This document shows, piece by piece, positions 768-11,339 of a stretch of DNA of 64,000 nucleotides (positions within the stretch are counted from its first letter, which is position 1; each line of letters starts with the position of its first letter). The notes below the pieces were generated by a model. That model was not told where the DNA came from, searched no databases, and was given only the letters and a program-made list of their open reading frames with translations. Source of the stretch: Bacteroidales bacterium (lineage in GTDB: Bacteria > Bacteroidota > Bacteroidia > Bacteroidales > UBA932); contig JAEEQS010000006.1 in NCBI GenBank assembly GCA_016285455.1, positions 1-64,000 of the forward strand, given 5' to 3'. Both the position numbers and the translations under genes were made by a program.

Positions 768-1724
768 TTATCTGCTCTCCTTGTCCTCTACGTTAAGCGT
801 TGCGTGAGGAACCAGAAGAAGCCTTGCCTTAGGAATAAGCTTGCCGGTCTTGCGGCTGATGCCGTAGGTCTTGTTCTCGATTCTGACCAGAGCCGCCTCG
901 AGGTTCTGGATGAACTTGTACTGGCGGTTTGCAAGCTGGCTGCTTTCTTCCTTAGACAGGGAGAAGGCGCCCTCCTCAATTACCTGGAAAGAAGGAGAAG
1001 TATCTTCTACATCGTTGCTGGTGCGATGGGTAATCGCTGAGCGAAGCATCTCGTAATCGTCTTTTGCCTTGGCGAGCTTCTCTAGTATGATCTTCTTGAA
1101 TTCCTGAAGATCGGCATCGCTGTAGCGAACCTTAGGAACTTGCGGCTCTTCCTTTACCGGAGCTGCAGGCTTTACCTCAGGAACTTTTACGGGAGCTTTC
1201 TTTACTTCTTCAACTTTCTTTGCCGGAGCCTTTGCAACTGGCTTCTTGGCTGGAGCAGCTTTCTTTGCTACAACCTTCTTTACAGGAGCCTTGGCTACAA
1301 CTTTCTTAGCCGGAGCTTTTGCTACAACTTTTTTTGCTGGAGCCTTTGCTGCTGGCTTCTTGGCTGGAGCGGCTTTCTTTGCCACAACCTTCTTTACAGG
1401 AGCCTTGGCTATGGCTTTCTTAGCCGGAGCTTTTGCTACGACCTTCTTTGCTGGGGCCTTTGCAACTGGCTTCTTGGCTGGAGCAGCTTTCTTTGCTACA
1501 ACCTTCTTTACAGGAGCTTTGGCTACGGCTTTCTTTACCGGGGCCTTCTTTACGGGAGCCTTGGCTGCAACTTTCTTTGCAGCCGCCTTTGCAGGCTTCT
1601 TGGCAACAGCTTTTGCCACAGGCTTCTTAGGCTCTGCTTTTTTCACAACGGCTTTCTTTGCTGCCGGTTTTGGGGCAGTCTTTTTTGGAGCCACTTTGGC
1701 TGCCTTCTTCACTTTTGTTGCCAT
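768..1724 (-). CDS. DksA/TraR-like protein with long Lys/Ala/Pro-rich N-terminal tail
   Basis: The C-terminal ~120 residues (about 198-318) resemble the TraR/DksA family. They comprise a helical hairpin and then the conserved stretch TYGISRKTGKLIPKARL followed by VPHATLN. In zinc-binding relatives the serine of TYGIS is a cysteine, and no zinc-finger cysteines remain here. Residues 1 to ~190 are almost entirely K, A, P and V in histone-H1-like KKA/AKAPAKK repeats, built from a 38-residue (114-bp) unit at DNA level. DksA proteins bind the RNA polymerase secondary channel; the basic tail suggests nucleic-acid binding, but that is inference. It lies between ileS and lspA, the usual Bacteroidota position of a short (~125 aa) DksA-like gene, so the tail is the unusual part. 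Confidence 0.85.
   Translation of the reverse strand: MATKVKKAAKVAPKKTAPKPAAKKAVVKKAEPKKPVAKAVAKKPAKAAAKKVAAKAPVKKAPVKKAVAKAPVKKVVAKKAAPAKKPVAKAPAKKVVAKAPAKKAIAKAPVKKVVAKKAAPAKKPAAKAPAKKVVAKAPAKKVVAKAPVKKVVAKKAAPAKKPVAKAPAKKVEEVKKAPVKVPEVKPAAPVKEEPQVPKVRYSDADLQEFKKIILEKLAKAKDDYEMLRSAITHRTSNDVEDTSPSFQVIEEGAFSLSKEESSQLANRQYKFIQNLEAALVRIENKTYGISRKTGKLIPKARLLLVPHATLNVEDKESR
1240..1581. repeat. 114-bp in-frame tandem repeat inside the DksA-like gene
   Basis: The same DNA segment (starting GGCTTCTTGG on the plus strand) begins at 1240, 1354 and 1468, exactly 114 bases (38 codons) apart. The third copy is degenerate. It encodes the AKKPVAKAPAKK-type tail, and repeat number is likely to vary between strains. 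Confidence 0.85.
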
Positions 1725-4700: not shown

Positions 4701-5168
4701 TATGTAGCGGTTGTCATAGGTGATGTACGGATTATCCATATCTACCCAGTAGCCAATCTGCTCTGTAAGCGCAACCCACTCTGCAGTATATTTCATCACC
4801 TCCTTGCGGCAGGCGTTGTTGTAATCGTCTACTGAAATCTTCTTTCCAATGTCTTCCTTGGTAATGCCAAGCATCTTCTCCACGCCAAGTTCCACAGGAA
4901 GACCGTGGGTGTCCCAGCCTGCCTTTCGGGGAACAAAGAAACCTCTCTGAGTCTTGTAACGGCAATATGCGTCTTTAATGCTTCTTGCCATAACGTGGTG
5001 AATGCCAGGCTTTCCGTTAGCGGAAGGAGGACCTTCAAAGAACACAAAGCGGGGAGAGCCCTCCCTTGCTGAGTTCACTGTCTCAAAACATTTTTCCTCT
5101 TTCCATTTCTTAAGAACCTGCCGGCCTATTTCCACCGGATCAAACTTCTTGTACTCTGCAAAACCCAT
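1746..5168 (-). CDS. ileS: Isoleucine--tRNA ligase
   Basis: Class I aminoacyl-tRNA synthetase that charges tRNA-Ile. The HIGH-type motif is GIHH at residues 55-58, in a context PPSANGKPGIHHVMARSIKD typical of Bacteroidota enzymes. The KMSKR motif is at about residues 683-687. The large CP1 editing domain lies between them and an anticodon-binding domain follows. The ATG at 5168 is preferred; a TTG six bases upstream overlaps a TATATTTG box and is unlikely as a start. Length is 1140 residues, normal for this type. It is the first gene of ileS - DksA-like - lspA, and a TAnnTTTG box at 5202-5209 is the likely promoter. Confidence 0.97.
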   Translation of the reverse strand: MGFAEYKKFDPVEIGRQVLKKWKEEKCFETVNSAREGSPRFVFFEGPPSANGKPGIHHVMARSIKDAYCRYKTQRGFFVPRKAGWDTHGLPVELGVEKMLGITKEDIGKKISVDDYNNACRKEVMKYTAEWVALTEQIGYWVDMDNPYITYDNRYIETLWYLLKDLYNKGLLYKGYTIQPYSPAAGTGLSSHELNQPGCYRDVKDTTATVQFQVVKDVKSAFLFKGVNISGEESPANELNEGELFFIAWTTTPWTLPSNVALCVGPNIEYVRVASSNPYSGKPAIYIVAKDLVEVNFKKVEHKVLDSFKGRDLEGVKYCQLLPWILPEENTMRVICGDFVSTEEGTGIVHIAPTFGADDDRVGKQNNIAPFTLKDKEGVWRPMVDRTGKFFRIEDLDPEFVKTRVKPEYLKFAGRYVKNAYDASLSPDAETLDVDICVQMKMDGKAFKIEKHVHSYPHCWRTDKPVLYYPLDSWFIKATAVRDEMIELNKQINWKPESTGTGRFGKWLENLQDWNLSRSRYWGTPLPIWRTEDKKEEKCIGSVAELYNEIEKSVAAGIMQSNPLKDKGFVPGDFSDGNYAKIDVHKPYIDEIVLVSESGKPMYRESDLIDVWFDSGAMPYAQETLKALGTSEFGQTADFIAEGVDQTRGWFYTLHAIHTMVSHTPAFKTVVSNGLVLDKKGEKMSKRLGNAVDPFDQLEKYGADALRWYMLTNAQPWDNLKFDEAGVDEIRRKFFGTLYNTYSFFALYGNVDGFTGQEKEVPVSQRPEIDRWIISYLNSLIRDVKACYDDYDVTTAGRKIQEFVCDHLSNWYVRLNRKRFWGGAFNQDKLAAYQTLYSCLETVAILAAPIAPFYTDRLFLDLNAVSQRHKEQSVHLTLMPQEDESLIDKDLEDRMALAQKSTSMVLALRRKVNIKVRQPLSKLMIPVIDPMVQAQLEKVQGIILSEVNVKEIEYITNTEGLITKKIKPMFKTLGKKYGKQMKEISSAFANFTQKDISEIERSGEYTLHLPSGDVVLLQGDYEISSEDMPGWLVASEGSLTLALDIQISDALRREGTARELVNRIQNLRKDSGFEVTDRISVVVERKPDIVEAIEGGFSDYVCAQTLALSLKLAEASSPELEGASEVEWEDGKTVKIKVER

Positions 5169-5201
5169 ATTCAAATATATCCTCTCAATTTTTTAAGGCA
5201 A

Positions 5202-5209
5202 CAAATTTA
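5202..5209 (-). promoter_or_regulatory. -7 box of the ileS operon
   Basis: TAAATTTG on the minus strand, 33 bases upstream of the ileS ATG. A second match, TATATTTG at 5172-5179, lies only 3 bases before the ATG and could give a leaderless transcript. Confidence 0.5.
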
Positions 5210-5243
5210 AGAATCTGTTTTCAAAAATCCCTAAGAATCTTCC

Positions 5244-5251
5244 TATATTTG
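5244..5251 (+). promoter_or_regulatory. -7 box upstream of cvpA
   Basis: TATATTTG matches TAnnTTTG. It is followed at 5254 by a 10-codon reading frame (MKVQQQTLQL) whose TGA overlaps the cvpA ATG as ATGA. Confidence 0.5.
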
Positions 5252-5282
5252 CAATGAAAGTCCAACAACAGACATTGCAGTT

Positions 5283-5789
5283 ATGAATATAATAGACATT
5301 GCAGTTATAGCATTAGCGGTTATCGCTATCATATGGGGAGCCTGGAAGGGTTTCATAGCACAGCTGGTATCCATCCTTGGAGTATTCATCGGAATTTGGG
5401 GAGCCTCCAAGCTCACGCCTTATGTTACAAGCATTGTAAGCGGCTGGTTTCCAGAAGACAATTCAGAAGCTATTGTAAAGGCCGTAGTGTTTGTGCTCCT
5501 TGTTATTATTATCATCCTTATCTGCCATCTGATTGGAAAGGGCTTGGAAAAAGTGGCCGGAATCACTGTTCTGGGAGGCGTGAACAGATTCTTTGGAGCC
5601 GTATTCTGCCTGCTGAAGGCCGCTCTTTTCCTGGTTGCCCTGGCTTCTCTGACAGAAAATGCTCTCCAGGCTATGCAAGTTGCTCCTCCTGAGTATCTGA
5701 CCCAAAGCAAAACTTACGCTTTACTTAACCAAGTTGCAGACCAGATCCTGCCTTTTGTCAAGGAAATTTTTGCAAAAATTGCCGGTTAA
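5283..5789 (+). CDS. cvpA: CvpA family membrane protein
   Basis: A 168-residue protein with four hydrophobic segments (roughly residues 5-20, 27-45, 65-85 and 103-125). It has the CvpA layout: an N-terminal IDIAVIALAVIAIIWG helix, the glycine-rich WKGFIAQL turn, and GVNRFFGAVFCLLKA before the fourth segment. CvpA was named for its requirement in colicin V production in E. coli; related proteins are linked to envelope homeostasis. Its position just upstream of a bacteriocin export locus is notable but may be coincidence, since cvpA is widespread in this phylum. A short leader frame overlaps its start. Confidence 0.85.
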   Translation: MNIIDIAVIALAVIAIIWGAWKGFIAQLVSILGVFIGIWGASKLTPYVTSIVSGWFPEDNSEAIVKAVVFVLLVIIIILICHLIGKGLEKVAGITVLGGVNRFFGAVFCLLKAALFLVALASLTENALQAMQVAPPEYLTQSKTYALLNQVADQILPFVKEIFAKIAG

Positions 5790-5821
5790 GTCTCCCAACT
5801 GAAAAAAAGTTGCTCATTTCC

Positions 5822-5878
5822 GTACGATTCCAGAATCGTACACGGTAAATTTTACCGGATGGTTTTGAAAACCCATCC
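5822..5878. promoter_or_regulatory. Cluster of three inverted repeats upstream of the bacteriocin locus
   Basis: Three adjacent palindromes. The first has perfect 9-base arms GTACGATTC/GAATCGTAC with a 2-base centre (5822-5841). The second has arms CGGTAAA/TTTACCG around one base (5843-5857). The third has arms GGATGG/CCATCC at 5857-5862 and 5873-5878 around an AT-rich centre. The first two look like protein-binding operators; the third could also act as a weak terminator for cvpA. A near-consensus -7 box, CATATTTG, follows at 5888-5895. Confidence 0.6.
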
Positions 5879-5887
5879 TCCGCCTTT

Positions 5888-5895
5888 CATATTTG
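5888..5895 (+). promoter_or_regulatory. Probable -7 box of the bacteriocin operon
   Basis: CATATTTG matches TAnnTTTG at 7 of 8 positions. It lies 21 bases upstream of the first ATG of the operon and just after the palindrome cluster. Confidence 0.4.
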
Positions 5896-5916
5896 CATCG
5901 TCAAAGACAACCGGCG

Positions 5917-6096
5917 ATGAAAAGGAAAAAGAAAAGGCAGAAGGACGAAATTCTGGAAAGTTTTTCCAAAGACCTTGAAGCGAGTCCCGAATGGACTGCC
6001 GCCTCTTTGGGGAACGGCTCTCTTATCCTTTATATATTGCTGATTTTAGCCGGATTATGCCTTTGCCTGGGAACTTTGTGCGTTTTGCTCAGATGA
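5917..6096 (+). CDS. Small single-pass membrane protein, first gene of the bacteriocin operon
   Basis: A 59-residue protein not assignable to a family. It has a strongly basic N terminus (MKRKKKRQK), an amphipathic stretch to about residue 35, then one hydrophobic segment (about 38-57, LILYILLILAGLCLCLGTL). Its TGA overlaps the ATG of the exporter gene as ATGA, so the two are translationally coupled. Its size, single membrane span and position suggest an immunity or exporter-accessory protein, which is inference. The ATG at 5917 is preferred over an upstream in-frame TTG because the TTG sits inside the -7 box. Confidence 0.6.
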   Translation: MKRKKKRQKDEILESFSKDLEASPEWTAASLGNGSLILYILLILAGLCLCLGTLCVLLR

Positions 6097-8225
6097 GAAG
6101 GAAGGTACATATAAGGCAGACAGATTCTTACGACTGCGGAGCAGCGAGCCTTGCAGCCGTGGGAGCTTGGTGGAGAGTTAATATGCCGCTGAGCTATATA
6201 AGAAGGGAATGCGGATGCTCTTCAGACGGCATAACGTTGCGCGGGCTTGCAGACGGAGCAAGGGCTATGGGATTGAACGCCAAGCCAATGAAGCCAGAGA
6301 ACACAGACAAGCTGGATCTTGCGGAAAAGATTGCTCTGCTGGAGAGGCTGAAGGAAGCCGGAGCGCCTGTCATAGCCCATACAGTTTCAGAAGAAGGATT
6401 ATTGCATTTTGTGGTCATTTATAAAGTGGGAAGGAAACGTGTGGAGGTTATGGATCCGGCCAAAGAAAGGATCGGGTGGGTGAATATTGCGGATTTTGCA
6501 GGAAGATGGAGCGGTTTTATCGTACTTGTCTGTCCGGGGGAGGGATACCGTGCGGAAGACCAGACAGATGGCAGGAAACTGCGGCTGGTCCGCCTTCTGA
6601 ATATGCATCGCAGAGAAGTAATCCTGGCTTTGGCCGGCTCCATTGTTTTATCTGCAATGGGCATTTGCAATTCACTTCTGATGCAGATGCTCATAGACAA
6701 GGCTCTTCCAAGCGGGAACTTGGCGTATCTGGCTGTTTTGGCGGCGGTTATATTGGCTATGATTCCATTGAGTCTGGCTATAGGCTATCTCAGAGACCTT
6801 TATCTGATAAAGGGCGGATTGGCTATGGATAATTCCCTTGTCATAGGCTTTATGAGAAGGATTCTCAGGATGGATAGCAGATTCTTCCGCGATTATCCAA
6901 AAGGAGAGCTTGAAAGCCGCCTTTCGGATACCGGAAAAATCAGGCTGTTTATATGTGACGGAGTGGTGAGCTTTGGGGTTTGCGCCGTCACCCTTCTTGG
7001 AGTCTGCTTCCTGATGTTCTCTTTTTACAGCCGTCTTGCCGCCTTGCTGATGCTCTGCATTCCCGTTTATGCCCTTTTGGTGGGAGTGGCAGACAAGATT
7101 AACCGCAGGATGAGCCGCAAAGTTATGGCCGCCGCCGCTCAATTTGAAAGCGATGTGCTAGACAGCATAGAGGGACAGGAATCTATCCGCCATTTTGGAA
7201 CCAATCCAGCTCAATTGAGTTTTAACGGCAGCTTTTCCAGCCTGCTTTTTACAAGATTCAGGGCGGGAAAATTGTCTGCTCTGCTGGGCGGAGTCTCAAG
7301 CGCCCTCAACCAGACTATTCTGGGAGCGGTACTGATAATCGGAGGCGCCGCTGTCATTGGAGGAAAAATGACCTTGGGAGAACTGGTCAGCTTCTGGAGC
7401 TTGAGCGCGTTTTTCATCTCTCCGGCAAGCACGCTGGTTCAGTTCGATTCTCTTATGAACGAGGCTCTTGTGGCATCTGACAGAATTTACGGCATAACTT
7501 GTTTCTCAGCGATGGGCAACAGCACGTCTTCCATCAGGATGAAAAAGGGCAATCCCCAGGATCTTGTTCTGGAGGATGTCAGTTTCCGCTATCGCGGAGG
7601 AAAACCATTGATAAAAAACCTAAGCTGCACATTCTCCAAAGGAAGCCTAACGGCCATAACCGGCCCCAACGGATGCGGCAAAAGCACACTAGCCCAGCTT
7701 CTTCTTGGAGAATACTCTCCCGATAGCGGGAGAATTACATATGGTGGCATTGATGTCAGTCTTATCCATTCTACTTGCTGGAGGAACATTATATCTGAAG
7801 TTCCTCAATACTCTCACCTTTTCAATGCCACCATCTTTGACAACATAGCAATGTCCCCGGGAAGAAGGGACTCAAGCATAGATTTGCCTCAAATCAGAAA
7901 AGCCACCCAGGCTCTGGTGGAGGCCGGAGGACAAAACCTCATTAGTCGGACCGACAAGGGGCTTTTGTCTTCCTTGGGAAAGGGAGGAGTGAAACTGTCT
8001 TCTGGAGAGGCGCAGACGGTTCTGATAGCCAGGATGCTGTACTCCGATCCTGATGTCATGATATTTGACGAAGCTTCCTCCAATCTGGATGAAAAGACTA
8101 TGGAAGCCGTCAGGAATCTTCTTCTGGCGGAAAAGGAAAAAGGAAAGTGCGTAATTCTTATTACCCACGACCAAAGAATGGCCTCCTGCTGTGACAAGAT
8201 AATTGAAATGACCGGTCTATCATAG
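6093..8225 (+). CDS. Bacteriocin-processing peptidase/ABC exporter (C39 PCAT family)
   Basis: A 710-residue fused processing and export protein. Residues 1-130 form a C39 cysteine peptidase with Q9, C15 (YDCGAASL), H105 (LLHFVV) and D121 (VMDP), the full catalytic set for cutting after Gly-Gly leaders. Residues ~160-450 are the six-helix ABC membrane domain. Residues ~490-710 are the nucleotide-binding domain with Walker A GPNGCGKST (~522), signature LSSGEAQ (~635), Walker B VMIFDEAS (~655) and switch histidine THD (~691). The start at 6093 is set by the ATGA overlap with the preceding small gene and leaves the catalytic cysteine at the normal distance from the N terminus. Two Gly-Gly precursor peptides follow directly and are its expected substrates. 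Confidence 0.95.
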   Translation: MRRKVHIRQTDSYDCGAASLAAVGAWWRVNMPLSYIRRECGCSSDGITLRGLADGARAMGLNAKPMKPENTDKLDLAEKIALLERLKEAGAPVIAHTVSEEGLLHFVVIYKVGRKRVEVMDPAKERIGWVNIADFAGRWSGFIVLVCPGEGYRAEDQTDGRKLRLVRLLNMHRREVILALAGSIVLSAMGICNSLLMQMLIDKALPSGNLAYLAVLAAVILAMIPLSLAIGYLRDLYLIKGGLAMDNSLVIGFMRRILRMDSRFFRDYPKGELESRLSDTGKIRLFICDGVVSFGVCAVTLLGVCFLMFSFYSRLAALLMLCIPVYALLVGVADKINRRMSRKVMAAAAQFESDVLDSIEGQESIRHFGTNPAQLSFNGSFSSLLFTRFRAGKLSALLGGVSSALNQTILGAVLIIGGAAVIGGKMTLGELVSFWSLSAFFISPASTLVQFDSLMNEALVASDRIYGITCFSAMGNSTSSIRMKKGNPQDLVLEDVSFRYRGGKPLIKNLSCTFSKGSLTAITGPNGCGKSTLAQLLLGEYSPDSGRITYGGIDVSLIHSTCWRNIISEVPQYSHLFNATIFDNIAMSPGRRDSSIDLPQIRKATQALVEAGGQNLISRTDKGLLSSLGKGGVKLSSGEAQTVLIARMLYSDPDVMIFDEASSNLDEKTMEAVRNLLLAEKEKGKCVILITHDQRMASCCDKIIEMTGLS

Positions 8226-8231
8226 GCGGAA

Positions 8232-8254
8232 TCCGGCGCGCCAACTCTGCCGGA
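8232..8254 (+). other. Small hairpin between exporter and precursor peptide genes
   Basis: Arms TCCGGC (8232-8237) and GCCGGA (8249-8254) with an 11-base loop and no T-tract. It may be an mRNA processing or stability element separating the exporter message from the peptide messages. Confidence 0.35.
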
Positions 8255-8275
8255 AATCAAAACACTGTTGACAAA

Positions 8276-8488
8276 ATGGAAGAAAAGAGAATGAAAGGGA
8301 GCGGATTTGTCCCAGCAAGAGATGATGAGCTCTCGTTGTGCGGGGGGATGAACCCCGACACAATCAGGAAGATCGCTAAGATCATCGGCATCATTGTGGA
8401 TTTCATTTCCAGCTATGGGGAAGATTTCTACAAAGGCTACAAGAAAGGGCGTGAGGGCAAACCTCTGTTTGTATTTTCAGGCAAGTAA
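8276..8488 (+). CDS. Double-glycine leader bacteriocin-type precursor peptide 1
   Basis: A 70-residue precursor with a leader ending DDELSLCGG, matching the C39 recognition pattern (hydrophobic residues before Gly-Gly). Cleavage after GG would release a 46-residue peptide beginning MNPDTIRKIAKIIGIIV, with an amphipathic hydrophobic N half and a basic Gly/Tyr/Lys-rich C half containing GYKKG (a GxxxG motif). It has no cysteines, so no disulfide or lanthionine ring. An alternative ATG at 8291 gives a leader MKGSGFV... that lines up with MKGFVEI... of the next gene, so 8291 may be the true start. It lies directly downstream of a dedicated C39 exporter. Confidence 0.7.
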   Translation: MEEKRMKGSGFVPARDDELSLCGGMNPDTIRKIAKIIGIIVDFISSYGEDFYKGYKKGREGKPLFVFSGK

Positions 8489-8493
8489 GGAGG
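8487..8493 (+). promoter_or_regulatory. Shine-Dalgarno sequence of precursor peptide 2
   Basis: AAGGAGG, strong and unusual for this genome, overlaps the stop codon of precursor 1. It is 7 bases before the ATG at 8501 but only 1 base before the ATG at 8495, so it points to 8501 as the start. Confidence 0.65.
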
Positions 8494-8500
8494 AATGGTT

Positions 8501-8695
8501 ATGAAAGGATTTGTTGAAATCTCACAAGCAGACCAGACCCTGGTTTTCGGCGGGAAGGATGCGGATGTTGCCCGTTTTATGGAAGCTTTGGGCTACGGAA
8601 TTGGAGCTTTGGTAAGGGCAATAAAGCTCTTGCTCCAAAACAAGCATAGCGTCACGGAAGTACAGACTGAAATCCTGAGGATGTATGCCAGATAG
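8501..8695 (+). CDS. Double-glycine leader bacteriocin-type precursor peptide 2
   Basis: A 64-residue precursor with an 18-residue leader ending QADQTLVFGG. The predicted mature peptide is 46 residues, the same length as that of peptide 1. It begins KDADVARFMEALGYGIG and continues into a hydrophobic-basic amphipathic helix. GYGIG with the preceding leucine region gives a GxxxG motif (mature residues 13-17), as in class IIb two-peptide bacteriocins. There is no cysteine. The ATG at 8501 is chosen because of the well-placed AAGGAGG. A terminator follows at once, closing the operon. It does not match the cysteine-containing bacteroidetocin pattern known to me. Confidence 0.7.
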   Translation: MKGFVEISQADQTLVFGGKDADVARFMEALGYGIGALVRAIKLLLQNKHSVTEVQTEILRMYAR

Positions 8696-8703
8696 CAATT
8701 GTG

Positions 8704-8733
8704 AAAAAGGGGATGGCAACATTCCCTTTTTTA
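8704..8733 (+). terminator. Terminator after the precursor peptides
   Basis: An AAAAAGGG-type arm, a short loop and a CCCTTTTTT arm running into further T residues: a Rho-independent type hairpin right after the last peptide gene. Confidence 0.7.
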
Positions 8734-8753
8734 TTTTCACTCAGTAATATTTG

Positions 8754-8761
8754 TATATTTG
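8754..8761 (+). promoter_or_regulatory. -7 box of the tolC-hlyD-tsaB transcript
   Basis: TATATTTG, exact TAnnTTTG match. It ends only 6 bases before the tolC-like ATG, so the transcript would have almost no leader. Confidence 0.55.
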
Positions 8762-8767
8762 CACCCG

Positions 8768-10099
8768 ATGAAAAAAATATTGCTCATATCAGCCATTCTG
8801 GTAATGGCTTCAAGCCTGGTCTCCCGCGCCCAAAACGCCCGGCTGTGGACCTTGCAGCAATGCATAGAATACGCCAGGGAGAACAATCTCCAGGTCAAGA
8901 TGGAAGAAATAGGAGTAGAGCAGGCAAAAGGCAATCTCTCCCAGTCCAAATGGGATCTGGCTCCAAGCATAAACGCCGGCCTTAGCCACAGTATGAGCTG
9001 GGGAAGAAGCGTCAATCTCCAGACGCTGGAAATCATCAAGAATAAAAGGAGTATGTCCACCAGCGGAAACCTCAGCGCTTCCGCCACAGTTTTCTCAGGA
9101 TTCGCCAAAACTAATTCCATAAAAAGCAACTACACCTCTCTGCAGATTGCAAAGGAGCAGGTGGAAAAAGTCAAGAACGATATAACCATTCAGATAACAC
9201 GGGCTTACCTTCAGCTTCTGCTTGCCAGGGAGATAGAGCGCTGCGCCATAGAAACTTGCAACAGCACCGCCGAGCAGGTAGACCGCACTTCCAAGCTTGT
9301 TGATGCGGGAAGCCAGGCCTACAGCACTCTGCTGGAGGTTCAGGCTCAGTTGGCAAACGAAAAGTCACAGCTGGTTTCAGCTTCTTCAGATGTAAGGAGC
9401 AATCTTCTGACACTGATGCAGCTGCTGGATTTGCCTGCGGAGGCTGAGAAGGATTTTGACATTGTTTCTCCAGAAGTGAATCCCGATGAAGACCTCCTTC
9501 CTGAAGGCACTGTAGATGGAATCTACGGCCAGGCACTTTCACTTCCTCAAGTTAAAATCGCTGAGTATAATCTTGAAAAAAGCAAATACGACTTCAAGGC
9601 CATAAGGGCAAGGATGATGCCGTCGGTTTCTGTTCAAGCAGGCTACGGTTCCTATTATACAGATGGTCAGAGCGGAGCGTTCTTTACCCAGTTTGAGCAC
9701 AACAAGAATCCGTCTGTGGGAATATCGCTGAGCATTCCTGTATTCAACGGCTTTTCCTACAGAATAGCATCGCGCAACGCAAGGCTTGCCTCTGAGAATA
9801 CAGCCATTATGCTGGAAGTTCAAAAGCAGTCTCTGTACAAGGAAATCCAGACTGCATACAACGAAGCTTTCAACGCTCTTGAGAGGATGAAGGCTGCCAA
9901 GGAAAATATGAGAAGCATCCAGGAATCTTTCACATATACAGAAAATAAGTTCAACGTGGGCATGATGAACGCCACAGACTACAATATTGCAAAAACCAAT
10001 TTGTTCAAGGCTCAAAGTGCCTATTACCAAGCCAAGTACCAGTACCTTTTTGAACTGAAGATCCTGGATTTCTACAAAGGCAAGGCCATCAACCTATAA
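8768..10099 (+). CDS. TolC family outer membrane efflux protein
   Basis: Outer-membrane channel of tripartite exporters. It is 443 residues with a signal peptide (residues 1-23, ending VSRAQ) and two long internally similar halves rich in coiled-coil heptads typical of OEP repeats (e.g. LWTLQQCIEYARENNLQ near the N terminus). It is followed 10 bases later by an HlyD/MacA-type adaptor. The ATG at 8768 gives a clean signal peptide; an upstream TTG is inside the -7 box. It lies directly downstream of a C39 exporter and its peptides but behind a terminator with its own promoter, so it may serve that exporter or another pump. Confidence 0.9.
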   Translation: MKKILLISAILVMASSLVSRAQNARLWTLQQCIEYARENNLQVKMEEIGVEQAKGNLSQSKWDLAPSINAGLSHSMSWGRSVNLQTLEIIKNKRSMSTSGNLSASATVFSGFAKTNSIKSNYTSLQIAKEQVEKVKNDITIQITRAYLQLLLAREIERCAIETCNSTAEQVDRTSKLVDAGSQAYSTLLEVQAQLANEKSQLVSASSDVRSNLLTLMQLLDLPAEAEKDFDIVSPEVNPDEDLLPEGTVDGIYGQALSLPQVKIAEYNLEKSKYDFKAIRARMMPSVSVQAGYGSYYTDGQSGAFFTQFEHNKNPSVGISLSIPVFNGFSYRIASRNARLASENTAIMLEVQKQSLYKEIQTAYNEAFNALERMKAAKENMRSIQESFTYTENKFNVGMMNATDYNIAKTNLFKAQSAYYQAKYQYLFELKILDFYKGKAINL

Positions 10100-10109
10100 A
10101 CATTTTCAA

Positions 10110-11339
10110 ATGGCAAAGAAGAAGAAAAAGAACATCTGGTGGATAGCGGCTGCAATCCTGATAGTGATTCTGATGATTGCGTCCAAGACCTGCAAAAAGG
10201 ACAAGACTCCAGTTGTGGAGACCAGCAAGGTCGAAAGGATGACTATTGTTGAAACCATTCCTGCAAACGGCAAGATCCAGCCTGTTACGGAAGTGAAAAT
10301 TTCTCCAGACGTTTCAGGAGAAATCGTGGAACTTCACGTAAAGGAAGGAGACGCCGTAAAGAAAGGAGACCTGATTATCAAGATAAAGCAGGACATCTAC
10401 CTTTCCGCAGTGGACCAGGCAATGGCATCTCTGAACGCGGCAAGGGCATCCTACAAGCAGCAGCAGGCCCAGACTCTGAGGGCAAAGCAGAATTACGACC
10501 GCTACGCCAAACTCTATGAGCTTAGGACGGTTTCCAAGGCGGAATACGAAGCAGCCAGCGCTGAATGGGATGTTGCACAACAACAGCTGGATGGAGCCAA
10601 GTTCAATATTTCCAGCGCGGAAGCCAGGGTGAAAGAAGCCAGGGAAAATCTTCTCAAGACTACAATTTATTCACCGATGGACGGAATCATTTCCAAGCTC
10701 AGCGTGGAGCTTGGAGAAAGAGTTGTGGGAACCAGCCAGATGGCCGGAACTGAAATGTTCCGTGTTGCCGATTTCAGCCAGATGGAAGTTCTGGTAGACG
10801 TGAACGAGAACGACATCATCCGCCTCAACCCTGGGGACAGCGCCCAGATAACGGTTGACGCCTATACAGACCGTACCTTCAGCGGAGTAGTAACAGAAGT
10901 GGCAAATTCATCCAAGACTTCTTCAACTTCTTCTATAGACCAGGCCACAACATTTGAAGTCAAGGTCAGGATAACCCCTGAGTCTTATCTGGACCTTATG
11001 GCAGAAAATGCCTCTCCTTTCCGTCCTGGAATGAGCGCCTCTGTCCAAATCCAGACCAGCAAGGCCGAGAACGTTCCGGCTCTTCCTATATCCGCCATCA
11101 CTTCAAGGAGCGACATCGCTGCCGGTACCACAGGCAAGGCCTTTGTATTCACATACTCAGCCAAGGACCAGACGGTTCATCCGGTTGCCGTTAAGACTGG
11201 TCTTCAGGACATGACTCACATTCAGATAACAGACGGTATTTCAGATACTTCTGTGGTTGTTGCAGGACCTTTCTCCGCCATCAGCAAAACGCTCAGAGAC
11301 GGTATGAAAGTCAAGGTAAGCGGCCCGGGCATAAAGTAA
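10110..11339 (+). CDS. HlyD/MacA-type periplasmic adaptor (efflux membrane fusion protein)
   Basis: A 409-residue membrane fusion protein. Residues 1-30 hold a basic start and one membrane anchor (WWIAAAILIVILMIA). A biotinyl-lipoyl half-motif (VSGEIVELHVKEGDAVKKGD, ~68-87) is followed by a coiled-coil hairpin (~100-185), the second lipoyl half (IYSPMDGIISKL), then beta-barrel and membrane-proximal domains. It bridges an inner-membrane transporter to TolC. No MacB or RND permease is encoded next to it; the nearest candidate inner-membrane partner is the C39 ABC exporter upstream. tsaB follows after 4 bases, so it is co-transcribed. Confidence 0.9.
   Translation: MAKKKKKNIWWIAAAILIVILMIASKTCKKDKTPVVETSKVERMTIVETIPANGKIQPVTEVKISPDVSGEIVELHVKEGDAVKKGDLIIKIKQDIYLSAVDQAMASLNAARASYKQQQAQTLRAKQNYDRYAKLYELRTVSKAEYEAASAEWDVAQQQLDGAKFNISSAEARVKEARENLLKTTIYSPMDGIISKLSVELGERVVGTSQMAGTEMFRVADFSQMEVLVDVNENDIIRLNPGDSAQITVDAYTDRTFSGVVTEVANSSKTSSTSSIDQATTFEVKVRITPESYLDLMAENASPFRPGMSASVQIQTSKAENVPALPISAITSRSDIAAGTTGKAFVFTYSAKDQTVHPVAVKTGLQDMTHIQITDGISDTSVVVAGPFSAISKTLRDGMKVKVSGPGIK

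Follow-up and report, generated by a model that had tools for sequence, protein, structure and literature searches.

A near-core operon of a Bacteroidales family predicted to export two Gly-Gly precursor peptides, with plausible class IIb-like function

Introduction

Among the class II bacteriocins of Bacteroidales, bacteroidetocins are named as one group in the available parts of one report (PMC10352776), and the accessible parts of another place their genes in larger genetic elements, including an integrative and conjugative element (PMC6671954). The bacteriocin genes of Prevotella intermedia are presented, in the sections at hand, as largely strain-specific (PMC4349605). In the Cdz system of Caulobacter, killing was shown and a small transmembrane immunity protein is described, and in the same available text many Cdz-like systems are said to appear horizontally acquired (PMC5380434). 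Also, 21 two-component clusters were reported from rumen isolates, with Bacteroidota not named among them in the covered parts of that work (PMC13289728). In the literature searched, mostly without subscription journals, no two-peptide system is described for Bacteroidales. Here we describe such a candidate in 64,000 nucleotides from Bacteroidales bacterium GCA_016285455.1 (contig JAEEQS010000006.1, positions 1 to 64,000; this whole stretch is called the window): an operon at 5822-8734 with a C39 peptidase-ABC exporter and two short Gly-Gly precursors, PepA and PepB. By its distribution among genomes it is a near-core operon, passed on vertically within one Bacteroidales family, rather than a patchy bacteriocin island, and we consider a secreted, membrane-active peptide pair of class IIb type to be its best explanation as a whole, with a probability of about one half.

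Results

The operon consists of four genes in a row on the forward strand, namely a gene for a 59-aa protein (5917..6096), the exporter gene (6093..8225, 710 aa), pepA and pepB, and a hairpin terminator closes the row. The start of the exporter overlaps the end of the 59-aa gene via ATGA. The PepA precursor (8276..8488, plus strand, 70 aa) has a 24-aa leader and a 46-aa core that begins at 8348, with an alternative start at 8291; the PepB precursor (8501..8695, plus strand, 64 aa) has an 18-aa leader and a 46-aa core from 8555. The intrinsic terminator (8701..8734, plus strand) was recognized by hairpin folding (-18.9 kcal/mol, z -5.2) and is not among the results of a consensus terminator scan. 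Thus the palindromes, 59-aa membrane protein, exporter, two Gly-Gly precursors and terminator that a sequence-only reading of this DNA had listed were all found at 5822-8734. Gene content and comparison make a strong structural case for a two-peptide export operon that is dedicated and conserved.

The exporter exceeds the cut-offs of Pfam Peptidase_C39, ABC_membrane and ABC_tran. Q9, C15 and H105, which together with D121 we take to be the catalytic residues, are identical in 41/41 aligned exporters (the window and 40 loci) and D121 in 40/41 (one E), in agreement with the complete C39 active site noticed earlier. The Walker A lysine, the Walker B glutamate and the signature serine are kept in all 41. 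Among solved structures its best relatives are 4ry2, a bacteriocin transporter of ABC type, and the ComA of pneumococci. In the whole genome (2.15 Mb, 90.9% complete) the only C39 domain found is the one in this exporter, which fits the proposal of a dedicated exporter.

The exporter was searched in 118 genomes, its own included, and a first and a second round of retrieval yielded 59 exporter loci (loci and genomes are labelled L and G); these were drawn from the better exporter matches and hence are a non-random sample. One PepA and one PepB lie just downstream of the exporter in 50 of the 59, so that the association of both short genes with the exporter, first proposed from the window, is kept across genera. 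The pair is directly downstream and in the same order in 38/40 first-round loci, and is present in 12/19 loci of the second, more distant round, in some through weak matches (L140, E 3e-5 and 5e-6; L141, PepA 5e-4; L142, PepB 5e-4). Nine loci lack the pair (L064, L066, L135, L138, L139, L143, L145, L146 and L153). All 38 first-round pair loci have a cvpA, ileS, tolC or tsaB match within the fetched stretch, and the usual order is lsp, dksA, ileS, cvpA, 59-aa gene, exporter, pepA, pepB, tolC, a membrane fusion protein (MFP) gene and tsaB; the surroundings are rearranged in L048, L070, L137, L141 and L151. Neighbours were identified by Pfam (CvpA, TolC, MFP, Lsp, IleS, Hit, GreA), with a TsaD-family gene called TsaB and a thioredoxin-like gene called TlpA. 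The gene called dksA in the window (768-1724, minus strand) has a long repetitive N-terminal part rich in lysine, alanine and proline; it was named by eye only and has no Pfam match at 1e-5.

In the window both cores after the Gly-Gly site have 46 residues and no cysteine. The PepA leader holds one cysteine, and several relatives' cores carry one or two. By reading, the window cores contain GYKKG (PepA) and GYGIG (PepB), and neither has GxxxGxxxG. The peptide alignments have 37 rows each, made up of the window and the first-round pair loci except the near-duplicates L045 and L059 (36 of 38). In these a [G/A]xxxG motif occurs in 37/37 cores of either peptide (14.3 expected from shuffles for each), and strict GxxxG in 33/37 PepA and 24/37 PepB cores (shuffles, 10.1 and 6.5). 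The mean best helical moment over 18 residues, a value that presupposes helical cores, is 0.618 for PepA and 0.576 for PepB, against 0.398 and 0.406 for shuffled cores, and only 2.2% and 2.9% of shuffles match the window cores' best moment. Composition and shuffles therefore bear out, for the window cores, the earlier description of 46-residue, cysteine-free, amphipathic mature peptides with a GxxxG each.

Sequence distances were compared over the 21 pair loci (of 38) whose IleS and GreA matches are long. Divergence of the cores and of the exporter closely tracks that of IleS, with r 0.949 for PepA, 0.861 for PepB and 0.932 for the exporter, and 0/999 permutations reach these values. After correction for IleS, the correlation with the exporter is 0.44 for PepA and 0.38 for PepB. 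PepA and PepB are under purifying selection. Over six groups of near relatives, with 27 pairs in total, pairwise dN/dS of PepA is 0 to 0.24, except for one pair at 0.76 (dS 0.07), and that of PepB is 0.03 to 0.28 in the 25 unsaturated pairs, two pairs being saturated. Where core and leader were analysed apart, in two of the groups, the core of either peptide had the lower pooled pN/pS, and neither dN/dS nor the core/leader pN/pS gives a sign of diversifying selection on the peptides. The TolC gene is more constrained, with a mean dN of 0.058 in the first group versus 0.097 and 0.157 for the peptides. We consider the operon near-core and vertically inherited because pair synteny, single copy, the PepA-IleS correlation of 0.95 and purifying selection all point that way.

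These results bear on whether the operon might be an ordinary patchy bacteriocin island gained by transfer. Gly-Gly precursors with a C39 exporter would suit such an island, and related exporters occur on plasmids, with up to 32% identity among the matches listed. Also, in another genus (L135:4799-8545, genome G054) the same lsp-dksA-ileS-cvpA genes are followed by a different cluster, made up of a C39 exporter together with a fusion protein and a small protein unlike those of the operon. However, each positive genome has a single copy at one place, peptide divergence tracks IleS, and neither PepA nor PepB matched plasmids or phages. Synteny, copy number and the IleS correlation thus disfavour a transfer-borne island, which we regard as very improbable. 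As a separate observation, the mobilizable plasmid pBACSA02 of Phocaeicola salanitronis (L133) carries in a row an HlyD-type adaptor, a C39 exporter (31% identity) and TolC, with small hypothetical genes near them.

The PepA profile, built from the 37 aligned rows, has exactly one match in 37/39 genomes of the genus, and likewise in 116/249 sampled genomes of the family (10/25 genera). In the order sample 2/295 genomes match, both from the same family. The profile misses weak members, since G042 and G058 are negative and yet have weak pairs at their loci. Three near relatives are metagenome-assembled genomes of Bacteroidales or Bacteroidia, and the sources of two of them are buffalo rumen and goat omasum. 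PepA is missing from two members of the genus, G001 and G010, which also miss the close exporter (best E 6e-33 and 3e-35), while exporter matches of the other members have E 2e-69 or better. G010 offers a natural empty site in which 156 nt separate the cvpA and tolC matches; in the same genome (L158, reverse complement 5277-6737) a gene that reads as ATPase-like, with the P-loop GRRRVGKT, lies between ileS and cvpA. A link to colicin V through the neighbour with Pfam Colicin_V (CvpA) was rejected because CvpA stays at the locus after the operon is lost.

Residence at one place amid housekeeping genes, together with purifying selection and vertical inheritance, would also be expected if the pair was a structural or homeostatic factor acting on the producer's own envelope or surface, that is, a housekeeping use of a bacteriocin-like exporter. 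Nevertheless, the operon is cleanly absent in one genus genome, and the PepA profile, with the weak members it misses, is negative in 15/25 sampled family genera, and for these reasons the operon is not essential. We consider an envelope factor unlikely.

The 59-aa protein has a C-terminal transmembrane segment. An ORF of this type precedes the exporter in 29/35 loci (shuffle mean 0.17, antisense 0); the count concerns the ORF type, and homology between the members is not proven by it. The scan covered 35 of 40 loci, with L047, L055, L060, L064 and L066 left out. No such ORF was found at L039, L053, L062, L067, L070 and L071, though both peptides are kept there. The tail-anchored protein may be a candidate immunity protein or an export helper, and because of those six loci it could hardly be the sole universal immunity factor. 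A proposed link between a missing 59-aa gene and stop-bearing exporters was dropped, as a check of all 40 first-round loci found no stop within the exporter frame where it matched.

Downstream of the terminator follow genes for a TolC-type outer membrane protein (8768..10099, plus strand), a probable exporter partner, and for a MacA/RND-type MFP (10110..11339, plus strand), a probable periplasmic adaptor. TolC is not part of the block of genes that disappears together, and both genes remain in G010 without the operon, so TolC-MFP as a strict operon part was rejected. In G050 and G060, where 8 and 16 kb were read, MFP, TolC and TsaB matches occur without one to the exporter.

Three inverted repeats lie upstream of the operon, at 5822-5830/5833-5841, 5843-5849/5851-5857 and 5857-5866/5869-5878. 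The first (5822..5841, no strand assigned) is a dyad with a TACGATTCCAGAATCGTA core and a candidate operator, being conserved upstream of the operon in near relatives with paired changes. The second and third (5843..5878, no strand assigned) belong to a promoter element, with the sequence GTAAATTTTACCGNATGGTTT, that recurs in the genome. A likely Bacteroidota-type promoter is present at 5863..5895 (plus strand) within a conserved region, where TTTTG ... TATTTG presumably corresponds to the Bacteroidota consensus. A sigma-70 promoter scan of the operon upstream region gave no score above shuffles, and in window positions 5000-9000 no structural RNA matched Rfam at gathering score.

The 18-bp dyad occurs exactly at 7 places in the genome, and at 15 with at most 1 mismatch versus 3 for the reversed pattern; GTAAATTTTACCGNATGGTTT occurs at 12 places with at most 3 mismatches, against 0 for its reversed control. 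Two exact dyads in tandem precede a gene for an AraC-type helix-turn-helix protein (PF12833), whose N-terminus has a hydrophobic stretch (2.18 over 19 residues) and is likely a membrane anchor. This gene had a match in 35/39 genomes, and the 20 best loci were compared. Among them the dyad, with at most 1 mismatch, is upstream of the AraC-type gene in 12/20, of the operon in 10/20 and of both in 9/20, and G022 and G002 have no operon dyad. In these loci 14 dyads fall within the 9.6 kb that precede the AraC-type gene and none within the other 58 kb, and the reversed pattern is found 0 times. Further, in G000, G027 and G028 the 18-mer at the AraC-type gene equals the operon 18-mer, allowing for strand, and this 18-mer is a different one in each of the three genomes. 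Because dyads are concentrated upstream of this gene and identical 18-mers stand at both places, the AraC-type protein is a candidate regulator and probably regulates the operon in near relatives.

Such wiring would also suit a secreted signal, in which the two peptides inform cells about density or kinship and the AraC-type regulator, likely membrane-anchored, closes a feedback loop. The shared dyad and 18-mers and their clustering upstream of the regulator gene are consistent with it, as are the single copy in the genus, the tracking of IleS by both peptides and the one-member matches to the pheromone models ComC, BlpC and VP1 (see Discussion). On the other side, GxxxG faces and paired genes are more readily explained by a membrane pair, the neighbourhood of the operon showed no gene for a receptor or kinase, and half of the 20 genomes compared lack the operon dyad. 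To our knowledge, pheromones with a Gly-Gly-type leader are single peptides. We hold a signal to be rather unlikely, yet it is, with an envelope factor, the serious rival to the class IIb-like reading.

The dyad element is found in other settings as well. A near copy with the promoter precedes a YhcG-type PDDEXK nuclease gene (L088:4041-5922, G000 C11) that matches PADLOC PDC-S02 models, and it likewise stands before a gene whose weak MuF_C domain stays below the Pfam cut-off. At L086:5591-6759 (G000 C16) two elements about 700 bp apart stand before a MuF_C-domain gene and a HigB-type toxin gene, the latter followed by an ORF that resembles an HTH partner by reading. At L084:4186-5018 (G000 C6) the gene that follows the element encodes an IS200-like (Y1_Tnp) transposase. 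Five more places (L096-L100) have GTAAATTTTACCG or GTCAATTTTACCG without an upstream dyad, and one of them (L098) precedes a Gp49-like gene with an HTH partner. As it also stands before transposase, nuclease, MuF_C and HigB genes, the dyad element may be a mobile or repeated promoter element rather than a classical regulon.

Discussion

In the mechanism that we propose, PepA and PepB would be made from the operon as precursors, each would be cleaved after Gly-Gly by the exporter's C39 domain, and the exporter would secrete both cores, probably with the TolC and MFP that neighbour it in most loci. The amphipathic core helices might then pair through their conserved G/AxxxG face and jointly act on a membrane in the manner of class IIb peptides, most likely that of close relatives sharing the niche. 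The tail-anchored 59-aa protein would be a candidate for immunity or an export accessory in most, not all, lineages. In near relatives a dyad-binding regulator, probably the AraC-type protein with the same dyads, would control the operon.

Several findings weigh against this class IIb-like reading. Single copy, fixed locus and vertical inheritance are unusual for bacteriocin clusters. After IleS correction, PepA and PepB distances show no correlation (0.02). No universal immunity gene was found among the 35 loci scanned. The exporter scores 309.3 bits, below the 523.85 cut-off of NCBIfam TIGR01193 (peptide cleavage/export ABC transporter). L057 and L062, both with the peptide pair, have no TolC or fusion protein alongside, and the L062 genome has no fusion-protein match at E 1e-40. 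Finally, neither peptide family is convincingly covered by Pfam, NCBIfam or a solved-structure match. In the Pfam/NCBIfam scan of 37 members per family, the models with hits, among which are ComC, BlpC, VP1, lactococcin G-beta, Bacteriocin_IIc and CTB-family models, were hit by 1 to 3 members each and none by those of the window; ComC (E 3.1e-5) or BlpC (E 4.4e-4) matched 1/37 PepA members, and the matches to lactococcin G-beta (E 0.009) and Bacteriocin_IIc (E 0.06) were weak and from one member each. Profiles of PepA and PepB gave nothing meaningful against solved structures (PDB).

Of the bacteriocin system first proposed, the genes stand: they are paired, Gly-Gly led and exporter-linked, with amphipathic, GxxxG-bearing cores. 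The part that does not fit is the single-copy vertical distribution, which is unlike a typical bacteriocin cluster. A bacteriocin function of the pair is plausible by analogy. Since the operon is inherited like a core gene, its role may exceed killing, and given its near-core distribution a function in signalling or in the envelope is a realistic alternative. We entertain, rather doubtfully, a combined idea in which a class IIb-like pair is a family-wide vertical trait, operator-wired to the AraC-type regulator, and would serve as lineage signal or self-recognition rather than as a strain weapon. A pair kept once per genome across family genera would be either a weapon rarely traded away or a Gram-negative peptide signal. 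The operon, its natural empty site and the candidate regulator make this question directly testable.

Among the described systems, class IIb bacteriocins of the lactococcin G and plantaricin EF type share with this locus two adjacent Gly-Gly precursors, cysteine-free amphipathic cores with GxxxG, a C39 ABC exporter in the operon and a small membrane protein. They differ in that here the host is a Gram-negative Bacteroidales, the operon is a near-core chromosomal single copy, the small protein is not universal and no sequence match goes beyond the weak lactococcin G-beta and Bacteriocin_IIc hits.

As far as the available parts of its description go, Cdz shares the Gram-negative host, two small glycine-motif proteins and type I secretion, but CdzC and CdzD have 86 and 84 aa and extended GxxxGxxxG zippers, absent from the window cores (PMC5380434). 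Bacteroidetocins, again by the accessible sections, share the Bacteroidota host, a Gly-Gly leader, a double-glycine peptidase ABC exporter and a core of 42-48 aa; in contrast, theirs is a single cysteine-bearing peptide with a five-transmembrane protein and mostly a thiol oxidoreductase (PMC6671954). The sequence-only reading had set the peptides apart from bacteroidetocins, and rightly so, with 0 cysteines in the window cores where at least 2 would be expected and an operon that includes no gene for a thiol oxidoreductase; some 4 kb further downstream, the opposite strand carries a thioredoxin-like gene (Pfam Thioredoxin_8). The strain-specific bacteriocin genes of Prevotella intermedia, as presented in the sections at hand (PMC4349605), contrast with the near-core operon described here. 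Class II microcins of the ColV type, in the covered parts of their report, share the Gly-Gly leader, the peptidase ABC exporter and the MFP plus TolC route (PMC10233263), whereas the present operon has two short peptides, a MacA/RND-type adaptor and a fixed locus.

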